In this document: positions 42,610-49,984 of the stretch, one piece after another
Layout of the letters: every line of letters begins with the position of its first letter
How positions within the stretch are numbered: position 1 is the stretch's first letter
From: Brytella acorum
GTDB taxonomy: Bacteria; Pseudomonadota; Alphaproteobacteria; Acetobacterales; Acetobacteraceae
Assembly (NCBI RefSeq): GCF_029309905.1
Contig: NZ_JARBJP010000004.1
Location: forward strand, 62,001 to 126,000
Direction: 5' to 3'
DNA: 64,000 nt
Program-made: the position numbers and the translations under genes
The notes under the pieces: generated by a model
What the model was told of the DNA's origin: nothing
What the model saw: the letters and a program-made list of their open reading frames with translations, nothing else
Database searches by the model: none

Positions 42610-43506
42610 TCAGACTTTGGCGAAGAGCTTGCCCACGGTATGCGCCACGCTGTCGCGCCATTCCGGGAGCTTCACGCCGAAGACGCGTTCGAGTTTGCCG
42701 CAATCAAGGCGCGAATCCTGCGGACGCTTCGCCGGTGTTGGCCAGTCCTGCGTCCGGATGGCCAGAATTTCCGGCACGGCCTGCCCATGTTTTGCAGCTT
42801 CTTCGAGCGTTGCCACCGCCAGACCGTGCCATGTCGTGTCGCCCTGGCCGCTGGCGTGATAGATGCCGGCGTATGAGTCTTTCCAGCCGCCCGTTTCGAT
42901 TTTCGCGATGATCGCGAAAATGGCCTGTGCGAGATCATCGGAGCTGGTCGGATTACCGCTCTGGTCACCGACAACCTTGAGCTGGGGATTTCTGGCCCCG
43001 GCATTGATCATGGTGCGCACGAAATTCTTGCCATGGGCCGAATAGACCCAGGACGTCCGCAGAACGATGGACTGTGGATTGGCGGCGAGCACGGCCTGTT
43101 CGCCTGCGGCCTTCGTGCTGCCGTAGACCGTCTCCGGCGAAACGGGATCGGTTTCGACGTAGGGAGCGCCCTTATCCCCTGAGAAGACGTAGTCCGTGGA
43201 CACGTGTATCAGAGGGATACCCGCCGCCGCGCAAGCCGTGGCCAACTCAGCCGGCCCGGACTCGTTGGCGCGGGTCGCGCCTTCCTTTTCGGTCTCGGCA
43301 AGATCCACGGCGGTCCAGGCCGCCGCATTCACGACGATTTCGGGATGATATCTGGCGATCGCCGCGGCAATCGTCTCGGGGCGGTCGAAATCGAATTCGG
43401 GCCGTCCCACACGGATTACACGCCCCTGACCGAGAGTTTCGAGGGAAACGGCCAACTGCCCGCTGCCGCCTGTGACGAGGATTTTGCCCTTGTCCTGCGC
43501 GCTCAT
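42610..43506 (-). CDS. rfbD: dTDP-4-dehydrorhamnose reductase
   Basis: 298 aa short-chain dehydrogenase fold. The NAD(P) loop is KILVTGGSGQLA, the active site YGSTKAAGE (Tyr and Lys), with VVNAAAWTAVDLAE and STDYVFSGDKGAPY diagnostic of RmlD. It makes dTDP-L-rhamnose, the last step of the pathway. Starts within the end of rfbC (ATGA overlap). Confidence 0.96.
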   Translation of the reverse strand: MSAQDKGKILVTGGSGQLAVSLETLGQGRVIRVGRPEFDFDRPETIAAAIARYHPEIVVNAAAWTAVDLAETEKEGATRANESGPAELATACAAAGIPLIHVSTDYVFSGDKGAPYVETDPVSPETVYGSTKAAGEQAVLAANPQSIVLRTSWVYSAHGKNFVRTMINAGARNPQLKVVGDQSGNPTSSDDLAQAIFAIIAKIETGGWKDSYAGIYHASGQGDTTWHGLAVATLEEAAKHGQAVPEILAIRTQDWPTPAKRPQDSRLDCGKLERVFGVKLPEWRDSVAHTVGKLFAKV

Positions 43507-44063
43507 GAGTATTGGAACCAGTTGGTGGCTTCGGTGAAGTGCGGTGCGACAAGGTCCTTGTCGGACAGGACGGCGTCCTTCGGATTCACGGGCCAGTCGA
43601 TCGCGATATGAGGACAGTTCCAGATGACCGCGCGTTCCGACGCCTTGTCATAGACGTTGGTGCATTTGTACTGCACCTCGGCATTCTCGGTCAGTGTCAC
43701 GAAACCATGCAGAAAGCCCGGTGGAATCCAGAGCTGGGACCAGTTTTCTTCCGAAAGCTCGGCTGCGACCCACTGACCATAGGTCGGTGAGCCCGTGCGG
43801 GCATCCACGGCGACATCCCAGATCGCCCCCCGCGTGCAACGCACCAGCTTGCCTTGGGCATAGGGGGCAAGCTGACAATGCAGGCCACGCACGACGCCCT
43901 TCTGGCGCGACAGACTCTGGTTGTCCTGAACGAACGGAAGATCGATACCCGCTTCCGTCATCCGCGACAGATTATAGGTTTCGGAAAAGAAGCCACGATT
44001 GTCTCCGAAACGCGGCGGCGTCACGAGAATGACTTCGGGTATTTCGAGACGTTCGACTTTCAT
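43503..44063 (-). CDS. rfbC: dTDP-4-dehydrorhamnose 3,5-epimerase
   Basis: 186 aa cupin-fold epimerase. The catalytic His lies in GVVRGLHCQ; FFSETYN and GFLHGFVTL (with WIPPG before it) are family signatures, as is the Tyr-rich region YKCTNVYD. Third step of dTDP-L-rhamnose synthesis. About 50 bases after rfbA. Confidence 0.96.
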   Translation of the reverse strand: MKVERLEIPEVILVTPPRFGDNRGFFSETYNLSRMTEAGIDLPFVQDNQSLSRQKGVVRGLHCQLAPYAQGKLVRCTRGAIWDVAVDARTGSPTYGQWVAAELSEENWSQLWIPPGFLHGFVTLTENAEVQYKCTNVYDKASERAVIWNCPHIAIDWPVNPKDAVLSDKDLVAPHFTEATNWFQYS

Positions 44064-44116
44064 GATCCTGCCTTTTTTCTGCCGTCAGCGATGGGGAATC
44101 GACCGGTCGCGGACCT

Positions 44117-45040
44117 TCAGTTCTTGCTGACAGTCGCGAGCGGTTGGCCGTGCTCCGCCAGCTCGCGGAGCATACGGCCGAGATCCGTCTTCGCGACGCG
44201 ATGGGCGAGCGCCAGAAGCTGCTGCTTGTCGATGAAGCCCATTCGGAAGGCGACTTCCTCCGGCGATCCAACCAGCATGCCCTGACGCGACTGGATCGTC
44301 TGCACGAATGTACCCGCCTGCATGAGGCTGTCCGGCATGCCGGCATCCAGCCACGCGCAACCTCGGCCCAGCCGGTCGACCTGCAACGTTCCTTCTTCCA
44401 GATACATGCGGTTGAGATCGGTGATTTCCAGCTCGCCGCGTGGGCTCGGCTTGACCCTCTTGGCAAAGTCGACCACACGGTGATCGTAGAAATAAAGGCC
44501 CGTCACCGCCCAGTTGGACTGGGGCTCTGTCGGCTTCTCCACGATTTCCAGAGCCCGACCGTTCTCGTCGAACGAGACCACGCCGTACCGCTCCGGATCG
44601 CGCACCTGATAGGCGAAAACCGTTGCGCCTTCGGGACGCTTGGCTGCGGCGCGCAGAAGCACGCCAAGATGGTCGGCGAAGATGAGGTTATCGCCAAGCG
44701 CCAGCGCACTCGGCGCACCGTCAAGCCATTCATCGGCGATCAGGAAAGCCTGCGCCAGCCCGTCGGGCGACGGCTGAACACGATATTCAAACTTCACGCC
44801 GAACTGCGAACCGTCGCCCAGCAGCCGTTGGAACTGGGGAATATCATGCGGGGTGGAGATGATCATGATGTCCCGGATACCCGCGAGCATCAGCGTCGAC
44901 AGCGGATAATAGATCATCGGTTTATCGTAAACCGGCAGCAGCTGCTTTGATGACGCAAGCGTCATGGGATGCAGGCGCGTGCCGGAACCGCCCGCGAGCA
45001 GAATCCCCTTCATGGGGGTCGAGAAAGAGACGCTCGGCAT
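44117..45040 (-). CDS. rfbA: Glucose-1-phosphate thymidylyltransferase
   Basis: 307 aa. The nucleotidyltransferase loop [32 protein letters not shown] and the metal-binding [10 protein letters not shown] are intact; VRVIEQPA-type end is shortened. Makes dTDP-glucose from dTTP and glucose-1-phosphate, the product of Pgm. Start ATG 45040 shares a base with the rfbB stop (TGATG), which supports this start over ATG 45013 (MKGIL). Confidence 0.96.
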
Positions 45041-46095
45041 CAGGAATTCGTCCCTAGTCGCTGGCCCGTATAGCGACGGGCGCGGATTTCTTCCCACCAA
45101 TCACGATGATCAAGATACCATTGGACCGTCTTACGGATCCCGGTTTCGAAATCGTGCTTGGCCTTCCAGTCCAGCGCCTCTTCGGCATGGCTCGCATCGA
45201 TTTCGTAGCGGAAATCATGCCCTGGACGATCGCTCACAAAACGGATCAGGCGCTCACGCGGGCCGGCGGGGTCGGGCACGAGTTCGTCGAGCACGGCGCA
45301 AATCGTTTTGACAACGTCGAGATTCGTGCGCGGTTGCCGCGCGCCGATCGCGTATGTTTCACCGGGCTTGCCGATTTCAACAGCCTTGACCAACGCCTCA
45401 GCGTGATCCTCGACGAACAGCCAGTCGCGGACGTTTTCACCCTTGCCGTAAACCGGCAGTTCCTTGCCTTCAATCGCATTGATCGTCACCAGAGGGATCA
45501 ATTTCTCGGGGAAGTGCCACACGCCATAATTGTTCGTCGTGTTCGTAACGAAGGTCGGAAGGCCATAGGTATGATACCAGGCGCGCACGAGATGATCCGA
45601 GGCCGCCTTGGACGCCGAATACGGGCTTCGCGGATCGTAAGGCGTCGTTTCCGTGAACGGCGGATCTTCCGGCTCGAGATGGCCAAAGACCTCATCGGTG
45701 GAAATGTGGTGAAAACGGAAGGCTTTCTGCTCGTCTGCGCCCAGACCGCTCCAATATTTGCGAGCCGCTTCCAGGAGGGAATAAGTTCCAACGACATTGG
45801 TCTGGACGAAAACGCCAGGGCCGTCGATCGAACGATCCACATGGCTTTCGGCGGCGAGATGCATGACCGCGTCAGGCTGGAAGCTCTCGAAAAGCCGCTG
45901 CATCTCCACGCCATTGACGATATTGGCCCGAGCATGGCTGTAGCGATCGTTTGACGCAACCTCGGACACTGTGTCTTCCGACGCCGCATAGGTCATGCAA
46001 TCGACGTTGAGAACACTATGTTCGGTGTTGCGTATGATGTGCCGCACAACCGCCGACCCGATAAACCCGCATCCGCCGGTCAATAATATGCGCAT
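45040..46095 (-). CDS. rfbB: dTDP-glucose 4,6-dehydratase
   Basis: 351 aa. NAD-binding [13 protein letters not shown] at the start, catalytic STDEVFGHL (Thr-Asp-Glu) and [14 protein letters not shown] (Tyr-Lys), NNYG and the substrate loop present. Forms dTDP-4-keto-6-deoxyglucose. First gene of rfbB-rfbA-rfbC-rfbD-glycosyltransferase; the operon promoter should lie in the 160 bases up to 46259, shared with a divergent gene. Confidence 0.97.
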
Positions 46096-46259
46096 CGACG
46101 GTCTTCTCCCGAACAGACGTTTTCTATCCCATTCCTTAATACTTACCGAGAGGGAAGGAAAGGGCCGCCGCCTCTCGCGCCGATAACGCTCTTGCTTTAG
46201 ACAGGGGCCACGACAAAGCCACAGCGGCCCTGAACCATGGACCGTCGAAGGAATTGCAC

Positions 46260-48329
46260 ATGCTCCAGGACGGGCTCACACGAACGCTTCTTGAAACGCT
46301 GGATCGTCCCGATCTGCGGACGATCGCGGGGCCGGTCGATGTAAGTCTGGATGTTCACCTCGCGATTCCATTTCGCGTCTGCGGCCCCCGCGTGGTGCTG
46401 GGCGGTCTGGCTCTGGAGCGGCCGGAACTGTCGCCCACCCTTCTGCGGCATGCGCTCGAACTCGCCCGCCTCCGCCTCGATGCGCCTGACATCGGATGCG
46501 AATACGCCATTTTCGCCTCGGCCCGTCTCGCCGCGTTGTTTCACGACCTCACGCCCGAAGCATGCTCAACGACGGACATCCTCCCATGGATTGACGTGCT
46601 GAGACAGGATCACGTCCCACCGGTGCAGGTGTTGCACACGCTCTGGTCCCAGCTTTCGGGAATGGTCGCCGATGCTCCGGAACAGATCGATGGCGAGGCC
46701 GCTGCCAGAGGACTGGAACGCGTCTGGCCGATGCTGGGGCCAACGGAAGCACTCATGGCGGAAGGCGGCGACGCGCGACTGGCGGTCGACCCGGATACGG
46801 GCCTCAATCGCTATGGCTGTTCTCACCGGCCTCGTCCCTGGGCGGTCACCTTCGCGTCCTCCACAGCTTCCTCTCTTTCGGAGCGTGGTTTCGAAGGGGC
46901 GGAAAATGCAAGACGACGCGCGGTCGTCGCGATCCTGCGCGGGCACAATGTCGATCAGGCCAGAGAGGCCTCGAGCCAAGACGCCAGAATCGCTCTGGCC
47001 CGATGTTATGGTGTCATGCCGGAACAGGTGATTCTGGCGGCGTCAGGCACCGATTGTGAACTGGCCGTGCTCGCGATCGCTGCCGACCGTGCGAACGCTC
47101 GCCCTCTGTCCAATATTCTCGTCGCTCCGGACGAGACCGGAAGCGGCGTCCCGCTGGCGGCGGCCGGCCGACATTTTGCGGACGAGGCAGCCAATGATGC
47201 GATCGTCACAAAAGGAGCACGCGTCGAAGGTTTCCCGGACGCGACCATTCTGCACGGGGTGGCAATCCGCGACGGTGCCGGCTCACCACGAGAAAGCGCG
47301 GAAATAGACGCGGAATGTGAAGCGACCATCGCCAGAGAGATATCGGCGGGGCGGCACGTTATCCTGCACCAGCTCGACATGTCCAAAACGGGGCTGGTCG
47401 CGCCGCGCGAAGACCTGCTTGAGACGTTGCTGGCGCGCTTCGACGGGCGTCTGGACATCGTGGTGGATGCCTGTCAGGCTCGCCTCGAGCCCGCCCGCAT
47501 CCGCCAGATGGTCGCAGCGGGGATCATGGTCATGGTCACGGGGTCCAAATTTTTTACCGGACCGCCGTTCTGCGGCGCGCTTCTGTTACCGCAGGCGCAT
47601 GTCGCCCGACTTTCGAAAGCCCGTCTGCCCCGTGGGCTTTCCGCATACGCGCACAAGGCTGAATGGCCGCCTCTGCTGGAAGACAACGCGCTCCGCGACG
47701 GCGCAAATTTCGGCCTCGCGCTTCGATGGCATGCGGCTCTGGCGGAGATGCTTGCCTTTCTCGCCATCCCGCCGGACCGTATCCGTGCGACGCTGGTCGC
47801 ATTCCTTGAGATGGGTCGTGACGCGATCGACGCGAATCCCGATCTTGAATTGCTTGAACCTCCGGCTCTCATCCGACCGCCGATTGAAGGCCGCCCCGGC
47901 TGGGATGACGTGCCGACCATTCTCTCGTTTCTCGTCCGCGATCCTCAGGACCACGAGCGCGTCATGGTCCTGGAAGACACTCGCAGGCTGCATCGCTGGC
48001 TGAACGCCGACCTTTCTCCCTGGATCAGGAATTCACCAATCGCTTCGCGCCTGTGCCATCTTGGCCAGCCCGTCCCCGTGAACGCCCCTCAACTGGGTGA
48101 CGCTACCCTGGCAGGCGCGCTCCGTCTGTGTGCTGGCGCACGTCTCGTCTCCGGGGAGCCCTCGCATGCCGGCATGGATCCTTCCGCGCGCCTGATCCGA
48201 GAGTTCAATGACGCCCGCGCGGCATTGGCGAAAATCTCCCTGATCCTGCAAAACTGGGATAGCCTGCGTGCGGCCGATCCCGTTCCGCATTACGCCCCTC
48301 TTCAGATGGACCGACAGGGAACCTCATGA
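46260..48329 (+). CDS. Uncharacterised PLP-fold (aminotransferase class V-like) protein
   Basis: 689 aa. Residues 1 to about 190 form a separate domain I do not recognise. From about 195 the sequence has the texture of a fold-type I PLP enzyme: [16 protein letters not shown] (cofactor phosphate loop), [28 protein letters not shown] with the Asp that pairs with the pyridine N, and [18 protein letters not shown] with the candidate Schiff-base Lys. The C-terminal part (about 480-689) is a small domain ending in alpha-helices. The substrate is unknown. ATG 46260 has AAGGA seven bases upstream. It overlaps a histidine phosphatase gene (ATGA), so the two should act together. Confidence 0.7.
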
Positions 48330-48991
48330 CGCAGTCACACGGCCACTTTCTCGATGCCATGCAGCTCCCTTCGGGAGTCACCCGTTTCTGGCTGATTCGC
48401 CATGCTCTCGTCGAGCCGCAGGCGCGTCTGCGGCTCTATGGGGCTCTGGACGTCGATGTCTGCGGCGACAGCCTCATGGCTCAACGTCCTTATTATGAAG
48501 CGATCGCCCGGCGCCTCCCGGAAGATGCGCGATGGGTGGTCTCCCCACTCCGTCGCACCCACGCGACGGCCCAGGCGATTTTTGAGGCTGGCTATGGCAA
48601 CCGCGACATGCTGATCGAACCGCGTTTCATCGAGCAGTCCATGGGGGAGTGGCACGATCTTCCTCATGGTGACCTTCCACGCAAGCTCCGGCAACGCGCG
48701 CATGATTTCTGGTCCACCTCCGCCAGCGAGCAGCCCCCCGGTGGCGAAAGCATGCTGGATGTCTGTGCCCGCGTCGGTCATGCTTTGGATGATCTGGCTG
48801 AGGTGAACGCTGGCCGCGATACAGTGGTCGTCAGCCATGGGGGCGCCATTCGCGCAGCGCTTTCTCACGCTCTGCAGGTTCATCCCGACACAGCGCTCCG
48901 CTTTGCCATTCAGAACCTGTCCCTGACAATTCTGGAGCGCATCAATGGCGTCTGGAGAGTTGTGACGGTAAACGAACTTCCTGCGGGCTGA
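48326..48991 (+). CDS. Histidine phosphatase family protein
   Basis: 221 aa branch-1 enzyme. Catalytic RHA in FWLIRHALVEP (the usual RHG is RHA here), Arg in VVSPLRRTHATAQ, Glu in IEQSMGEWHDL and the second His in VVVSHGGAIRAA are in place. Relatives include phosphoglycerate mutase-like and CobC-like phosphatases. It is coupled to the PLP protein gene, so it may dephosphorylate that enzyme's product or substrate; this is inference. Confidence 0.88.
   Translation: MTQSHGHFLDAMQLPSGVTRFWLIRHALVEPQARLRLYGALDVDVCGDSLMAQRPYYEAIARRLPEDARWVVSPLRRTHATAQAIFEAGYGNRDMLIEPRFIEQSMGEWHDLPHGDLPRKLRQRAHDFWSTSASEQPPGGESMLDVCARVGHALDDLAEVNAGRDTVVVSHGGAIRAALSHALQVHPDTALRFAIQNLSLTILERINGVWRVVTVNELPAG

Positions 48992-49908: not shown

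Positions 49909-49984
<76 letters not shown>

Follow-up and report, generated by a model that had tools for sequence, protein, structure and literature searches.

A divergent class-V-like, predicted PLP-dependent protein family of Acetobacteraceae co-occurs with a group II decarboxylase

The window analysed here, a stretch of 64,000 nucleotides of Brytella acorum (contig NZ_JARBJP010000004.1, positions 62,001 to 126,000 of the forward strand; contig C4 of genome G000 in what follows), carries a gene for a 689-residue protein that, as judged from profile alignment and structural modelling, is a divergent class-V-like fold-type-I enzyme predicted to bind pyridoxal phosphate (PLP). Among genomes, a group II PLP decarboxylase encoded on a different contig tracks this gene better than does the histidine phosphatase (HP) encoded directly downstream of it. 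On balance, we favor the view that the PLP protein acts on an alpha-amino acid in one pathway with this decarboxylase, the roles and the order of the two enzymes being our proposal, and that the decarboxylase, more than the adjoining HP, is probably its working partner. With more doubt than confidence, we also put forward a fuller version, in which a new PLP family and a group II decarboxylase would serve an alphaproteobacterial amino-acid-to-amine pathway. The PLP family would have, in the segment of the class V asparagine, a second active-site lysine (Lys376, whose loss accompanies that of Lys430) and would be mostly fused, in Acetobacteraceae, to a possible metal-free zincin remnant, and in related clusters, sometimes among flagellar genes, an ATP-grasp-like protein would complete a small-molecule route. 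This family, found in industrially used bacteria (vinegar bacteria and their kin), has been missed by Pfam and NCBIfam, and its likely catalytic residues are given below. The apparent operon partner is corrected in a testable manner, the co-inherited partner being the unlinked decarboxylase, and the shared distribution of these two PLP enzymes suggests that an amine is involved.

The gene of the 689-residue protein, hereafter the PLP gene, occupies 46260..48329 on the plus strand including its stop codon, as supported by the list of open reading frames, the structural model and the profile alignment. The frame runs from an ATG at 46260 to 48326 and is followed by a stop codon at 48327–48329; use of an alternative TTG start at 46254 would lengthen the protein by two residues. 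We consider the frame a real gene because relatives exist at identities from 65% down to about 37%. In agreement with a previous reading of the DNA made from the sequence alone, which had called the protein unrecognised, it matched nothing in Pfam or NCBIfam at E ≤ 1, nor did it match any PDB sequence at this threshold, and a search of the literature found no description of the family. Similarly, none of the 44 members scanned matched PF00266 or any other Pfam PLP family at E ≤ 1, while the NCBIfam scan of members gave some weak matches, including PvdN (0.098) and serC_3 (0.11), each in one member. Profile searching of PDB sequences with the alignment A1 returned none; two calcium-uniporter chains obtained with alignment A2 (E 0.57 and 1.1) were taken as chance matches. 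A single tRNA gene was detected in the window by ARAGORN, a tRNA-Lys (CTT) at 49909–49984 on the minus strand, which lies between the PLP–HP gene pair and parB.

A first scan of genome contigs with the single 689-residue protein gave no confirmed loci, while scanning with alignment A1 resulted in 72 named loci. At E ≤ 1e-3 the PLP family was detected in 82 of the 299 genomes of Acetobacteraceae (the family genomes referred to below), some of these matches being fragments and one, in G310, being taken as false: this locus (L120) was removed because the matching frame looked, on visual reading, like that of a cytochrome. The family was found in none of the 24 class relatives searched, and a profile of short forms detected it in four of 380 genomes of other families. 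We distinguish long homologues, which have the N-terminal domain of the window protein, from short ones, which do not.

The AlphaFold model of the 689-residue protein (44 sequences) has a pLDDT of 93.3 and a pTM of 0.93 and displays a fold-type-I, class-V-like PLP fold, as expected from the sequence-only reading. The corresponding domain comprises residues 162–689 (46743..48326, plus strand), as delimited by the short homologues, the model and hhalign. The PDB neighbours of the model, which match residues of about 188–671 with Z scores of 21–23, are C-DES, NifS, SufS, IscS, PhnW and AGT. C-DES (1elq) stands first (Z 22.9, rmsd 3.8, 360 residues aligned) with the others within about 2 Z units, and rows no more than 1 Z apart, transaminases among them, are to be read as tied; moreover, absence from these fold lists does not exclude a family. 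The best Foldseek E-value of the model was 7.5e-11, and the top rows obtained with a library of viral structures were PLP folds of a general kind. At the level of sequence profiles, hhalign aligned the family to the four PF00266 proteins of the window genome with a probability of 93.8 (E 1.8e-7), pairing VVDACQ with IDGSQ and TGSKF with TGHKL, and under a laxer setting it aligned residues 174–638 with a probability of 95.2. The same method gave a probability of only 0.1 for kinship between the 689-residue protein and the group II decarboxylase, and this relationship was rejected.

In class V enzymes, a lysine forms the Schiff base with PLP, an aspartate contacts the pyridine nitrogen, a histidine stacks on the ring and an arginine binds the carboxylate of the substrate. 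The motifs VVDACQAR (residues 401–408) and TGSKFF (residues 427–432), proposed from the sequence alone to contain the aspartate and the lysine for PLP, did align with the PLP residues of class V: hhalign places Asp403 (codon 47466..47468) on the class V aspartate, Gln406 on the glutamine, Lys430 (codon 47547..47549) on the Schiff-base lysine and Arg622 (codon 48123..48125) on the late, C-terminal arginine, all codons being on the plus strand. Asp403, Gln406 and Arg622 are each invariant in 101 homologues (87 long and 14 short forms, the count excluding L089, L104 and L108, whose PLP frame is broken), and position 430 is lysine in 98 of the 101. If the alignment holds, Lys430 would carry the cofactor, Asp403 would contact its pyridine nitrogen and Arg622 would hold the carboxylate of the substrate.

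That the closest folds in both Foldseek and the second structure ranking are C-DES, NifS, SufS and a carbon-sulfoxide lyase could be read as kinship of the PLP protein to cysteine desulfurases or C-S lyases. However, the tie of the top fold rows within 1 Z unit, transaminases included, blunts this argument, and several features of the family speak against it. Thr293 (98/101) stands where the class V ring-stacking histidine aligns, which is invariant in the four PF00266 proteins compared; the asparagine of class V is missing from the segment SKTG; and the loop preceding Arg622, which is loosely aligned, has no invariant cysteine, Cys599 being found there in 80 of 87 long and five of 14 short forms. 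Furthermore, the window genome already possesses PF00266 proteins at C2:622397 and C2:111803-113979. We therefore judge a desulfurase or C-S lyase function improbable and retain the broader assignment to a divergent class-V-like enzyme.

The SKTG segment, which takes the place of the S/N-N-x-x-G of class V, contains Lys376 (codon 47385..47387, plus strand), likewise a lysine in 98 of 101 sequences; here the class V asparagine lies opposite an alignment gap and Lys376 stands beside the gap. The three sequences without Lys376 are also the three without Lys430. Lys376 might hold a further anionic group of the substrate or join in proton transfer. The paralogues devoid of both lysines are found at L117:3156-4619 (minus strand), L121:3353-4855 (plus strand) and L132:4545-6812 (minus strand), and their host genomes hold another copy.

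The N-terminal domain (residues 1–160; 46260..46739, plus strand) is weakly zincin-like. The sequence-only reading was right that an extra domain precedes the PLP fold, but its size, put there at about 190 residues, is nearer to 160 according to the model and to the short homologues, which begin at about residue 160. Residues 1–165 modelled alone (36 sequences) gave a pLDDT of 91.6. Foldseek found no closer match to this domain than E 0.19, while in the second structure ranking zincin-like chains scored high, the best being the HExxH domain of ChlB (8s5f; Z 6.9, rmsd 4.3, 141 residues aligned) and Acel_2062 (3e11) giving Z 6.1 with an rmsd of 2.5 over 71 residues; Z scores below 8 may reflect merely a common arrangement. 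An HExxH motif was not found in the N-terminal domain of the window protein. Near-invariant positions are Arg63, Glu67 and Leu71; among long forms having a residue there, Arg63 is present in 83 of 84 and Glu67 in 84 of 84. Arg63 and Glu67 lie four residues apart on a helix (residues 55–74) that may be equivalent to the HExxH helix of zincins, in which case they would occupy the positions of its two histidines.

The odd N-terminal domain and the three lysine-free sequences could together be taken to mean that the protein binds PLP without catalysis, as a sensor or scaffold in which the N-terminal domain is the working part. We see very little chance of this, as nearly all other sequences retain the catalytic residues identified by alignment and the lysine-free ones are extra copies in genomes with another copy.

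The HP gene (48326..48991, plus strand) encodes a branch 1 histidine phosphatase of 221 residues, as established by PF00300 and NCBIfam scans and by residue alignment. Its protein matches PF00300 over the whole length (E 1.2e-39; 136.5 bits versus a cut-off of 21.7), and Arg25, His26, Glu103 and His171 are invariant among the 14 homologues aligned (L153 being excluded), but it falls under the cut-off of every NCBIfam model matched, the best being CobC (TIGR03162; 96.7 versus 162.9 bits). A role as phosphoserine phosphatase in a serine route was discarded, a canonical SerB scoring above its cut-off in the window genome (G000:C1:289161). The overlap of stop and start codons reported from the sequence alone is indeed present, the stop of the PLP gene and the start of the HP gene sharing ATGA at 48326..48329 (plus strand, read directly in the sequence). 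An HP gene lies directly downstream of the PLP gene in 70 of the 72 named loci, L097 and L098 being the exceptions; in L085 and L108 it was matched in two pieces and counted as present. With start codons chosen by script, the gap between the two genes ranges from −4 to 274 nucleotides, being exactly −4 in 10 loci, and in 59 of 70 loci it does not exceed 44 nucleotides with both genes on the same strand.

This close arrangement led the sequence-only reading to propose that both enzymes act on one phosphorylated metabolite. Such a metabolite could be, for example, a phospho-amino compound that would be made by the PLP enzyme and then released by HP. The pairing is kept throughout one clade except in Lichenicoccus: in a tree of 60 rows, in which L140 and L143 form long branches of unsure placement, the 30 HP-adjacent rows fall in one supported group of 31 (99/96), where only Lichenicoccus has no HP neighbour, a pattern that fits one origin and one loss. 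However, 270 of the 299 family genomes gave HP-like matches (E ≤ 1e-3), and HP is kept in G154, G078, G203, G273 and G013, in which the search detected no PLP gene. In L159, L161 and L162, also from genomes in which no PLP gene was found, HP follows frames that resemble, by eye, the ATPase and permease of an ABC exporter, and in L155 HP stays beside rmlB in the same situation. Conversely, at least three PLP-positive genomes (G012, G089 and G168) have no HP match and three others a weak one (G034, G176 and G009; G176 is 100% complete and its best HP match has an E-value of 3.4e-9). HP is also more conserved than the PLP protein: in each of the 70 loci its identity to the window sequence is the higher one, with medians of 64 versus 49%. 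Because the pairing is the synteny of one clade and HP also occurs without the PLP gene, we give the shared metabolite limited weight and consider it unlikely. HP is probably co-transcribed with the PLP gene in the acetous clade without being an obligate partner, and its own role is probably an older one. HP may carry out a dephosphorylation at some step encoded by this operon, but it is not required in every genome that has the PLP gene.

Upstream of the PLP gene, on the minus strand, the window contains rmlB/A/C/D (polABCD-like; 42610..46095), identified by the list of open reading frames and Pfam. The locus survey showed that these divergent neighbours, correctly described in the sequence-only reading as a dTDP-rhamnose operon, do not belong to the system in general: rhamnose genes, with rmlB nearest, are divergent from the PLP gene in 31 of the 68 loci with enough upstream sequence. 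The pol cluster, which corresponds to the rhamnose genes of the window, has been reported in connection with pellicle formation (PMC5553594, PMC5050591) and as necessary for it (PMC5553594), and the PLP protein could on this ground be a part of rhamnose or pellicle polysaccharide synthesis. Yet the Asaia and Komagataeibacter copies have no rml gene within the flanking stretch examined and, although a homologue lies near rml genes in L163, other genes surround most of the homologues found beyond the acetous clade, which leaves this role highly improbable.

The genomic distribution of a decarboxylase is part of the case for the amino-acid pathway that we favor. In the clusters L140, L141 and L142, all outside Acetobacteraceae, a PLP homologue, a decarboxylase scoring above the PF00282 cut-off and an ATP-grasp-like protein (X) are encoded together. 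A profile built from the three decarboxylases identified a counterpart in the window genome (G000:C2:632053-633465; 635.8 bits), on a different contig from the window, with HKW at positions 294–296. This protein matches NCBIfam decarboxylases below their cut-offs, and among solved sequences it comes nearest to decarboxylases of DOPA, diaminobutyrate and tyrosine (the closest being 7xin, 190 bits), a range by which its substrate is not fixed. Among 200 Acetobacteraceae genomes (G000–G035 and G060–G223, as read from handle numbers), 70 scored at least 488 bits and the next 274, with no scores between these values, the score line having been chosen after inspection of the list. The decarboxylase is thus present in 53 of 56 PLP-positive versus 17 of 144 PLP-negative genomes (Fisher 1e-29, uncorrected for kinship), and, when counted by genus, in 30 of 32 versus 10 of 70 (Fisher 5e-15, likewise uncorrected). 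The genomes with a PLP gene and no decarboxylase are G012, G089 and G133 (86, 96 and 84% complete).

A follow-up of 23 genomes in seven genera of mixed PLP status found the decarboxylase in eight of eight PLP-positive versus two of 15 PLP-negative genomes (G233 and G244); five of these 15 were already in the 200-genome sample, which leaves two of 10 among the new ones. The co-occurrence is clearest in genera g79 and g93; in g79, the decarboxylase is found in both PLP-positive genomes and in none of the four PLP-negative ones, all of which have HP. It is broken in g83 (G082, G157 and G244) and g31 (G233), where the decarboxylase occurs without the PLP gene. Among 380 genomes of the class outside Acetobacteraceae, three of four PLP-positive and seven of 376 other genomes reach 480 bits, with the profile there built from those same three PLP-positive genomes and scores without a gap; in the fourth, G620, no such decarboxylase was found. 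Physical linkage is seen with two short homologues of Acetobacteraceae, the decarboxylase gene following directly downstream in L119 (ATGA overlap) and L116 (TGATG overlap). Decarboxylase neighbours vary among the loci fetched. Note also that a 272-residue frame without NCBIfam match (L189:10509-11324, minus strand) lies beside the window-genome decarboxylase and recurs in four of 20 decarboxylase loci fetched.

In the pathway that we propose, one of the two enzymes would reshape the amino acid and the decarboxylase would make the amine, the PLP protein either handing its product on or receiving that of the decarboxylase. In some relatives, the ATP-grasp-like X could link an acid to the amine. 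X was identified by weak matches to RimK (0.014) and LysX (0.08) and is also found beside the PLP homologue in L122 and in G019 (L172). As a general partner X was dismissed: no X was detected in the window genome, and the overall association is weak at most, with seven of 56 PLP-positive versus 16 of 144 PLP-negative genomes scoring at least 375 bits (p 0.81) and, with weaker matches included, 21 of 56 versus 32 of 144 (p 0.03). In L141, L142 and L199, the decarboxylase and X lie among apparent flagellar genes, named by eye, like the ABC exporters above, except for FlbT of L141 (Pfam); the PLP gene was not found in L199. At L143:6434-7375 (minus strand), a gene resembling D-Ala-D-Ala ligases of the ATP-grasp type (below cut-offs) replaces X and is divergent from a PLP homologue from outside the family.

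The system can be compared with several known ones. Like the branch 1 histidine phosphatases CobC, PspA and glucosyl-3-phosphoglycerate phosphatase, HP has the catalytic residues of its branch, but it stays below the NCBIfam cut-offs matched. The zincin-like domains of selecase, Acel_2062 and ChlB rank first among the structures matched by the N-terminal domain, at Z scores of at most 6.9 and with no HExxH in that domain of the window protein. The proposed partner belongs to the group II PLP decarboxylases (PF00282), which include the DOPA, tyrosine and diaminobutyrate enzymes and with which the 689-residue protein does not align. According to PMC8141765, the methanofuran/methylofuran route employs the decarboxylase MfnA and the ATP-grasp enzyme MfnD, the same two kinds of enzyme as in the L140–L142 clusters. 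The likeness is an analogy only, a methylofuran route having been rejected for lack of a match to MfnB (PF04476) in the window genome. Finally, the 689-residue protein has in common with aminotransferase class V (PF00266: NifS/SufS/IscS, C-DES, PhnW and AGT) the fold, the D-x-x-Q motif, the lysine of TGSK/TGHK and the C-terminal arginine, and differs from it by the lack of a Pfam model match, by Thr293 in place of histidine, by SKTG in place of S-N-x-x-G and by the extra N-terminal domain. While it departs from PF00266 in the curated score and in one residue feature, in its predicted manner of working it resembles the class V enzymes.
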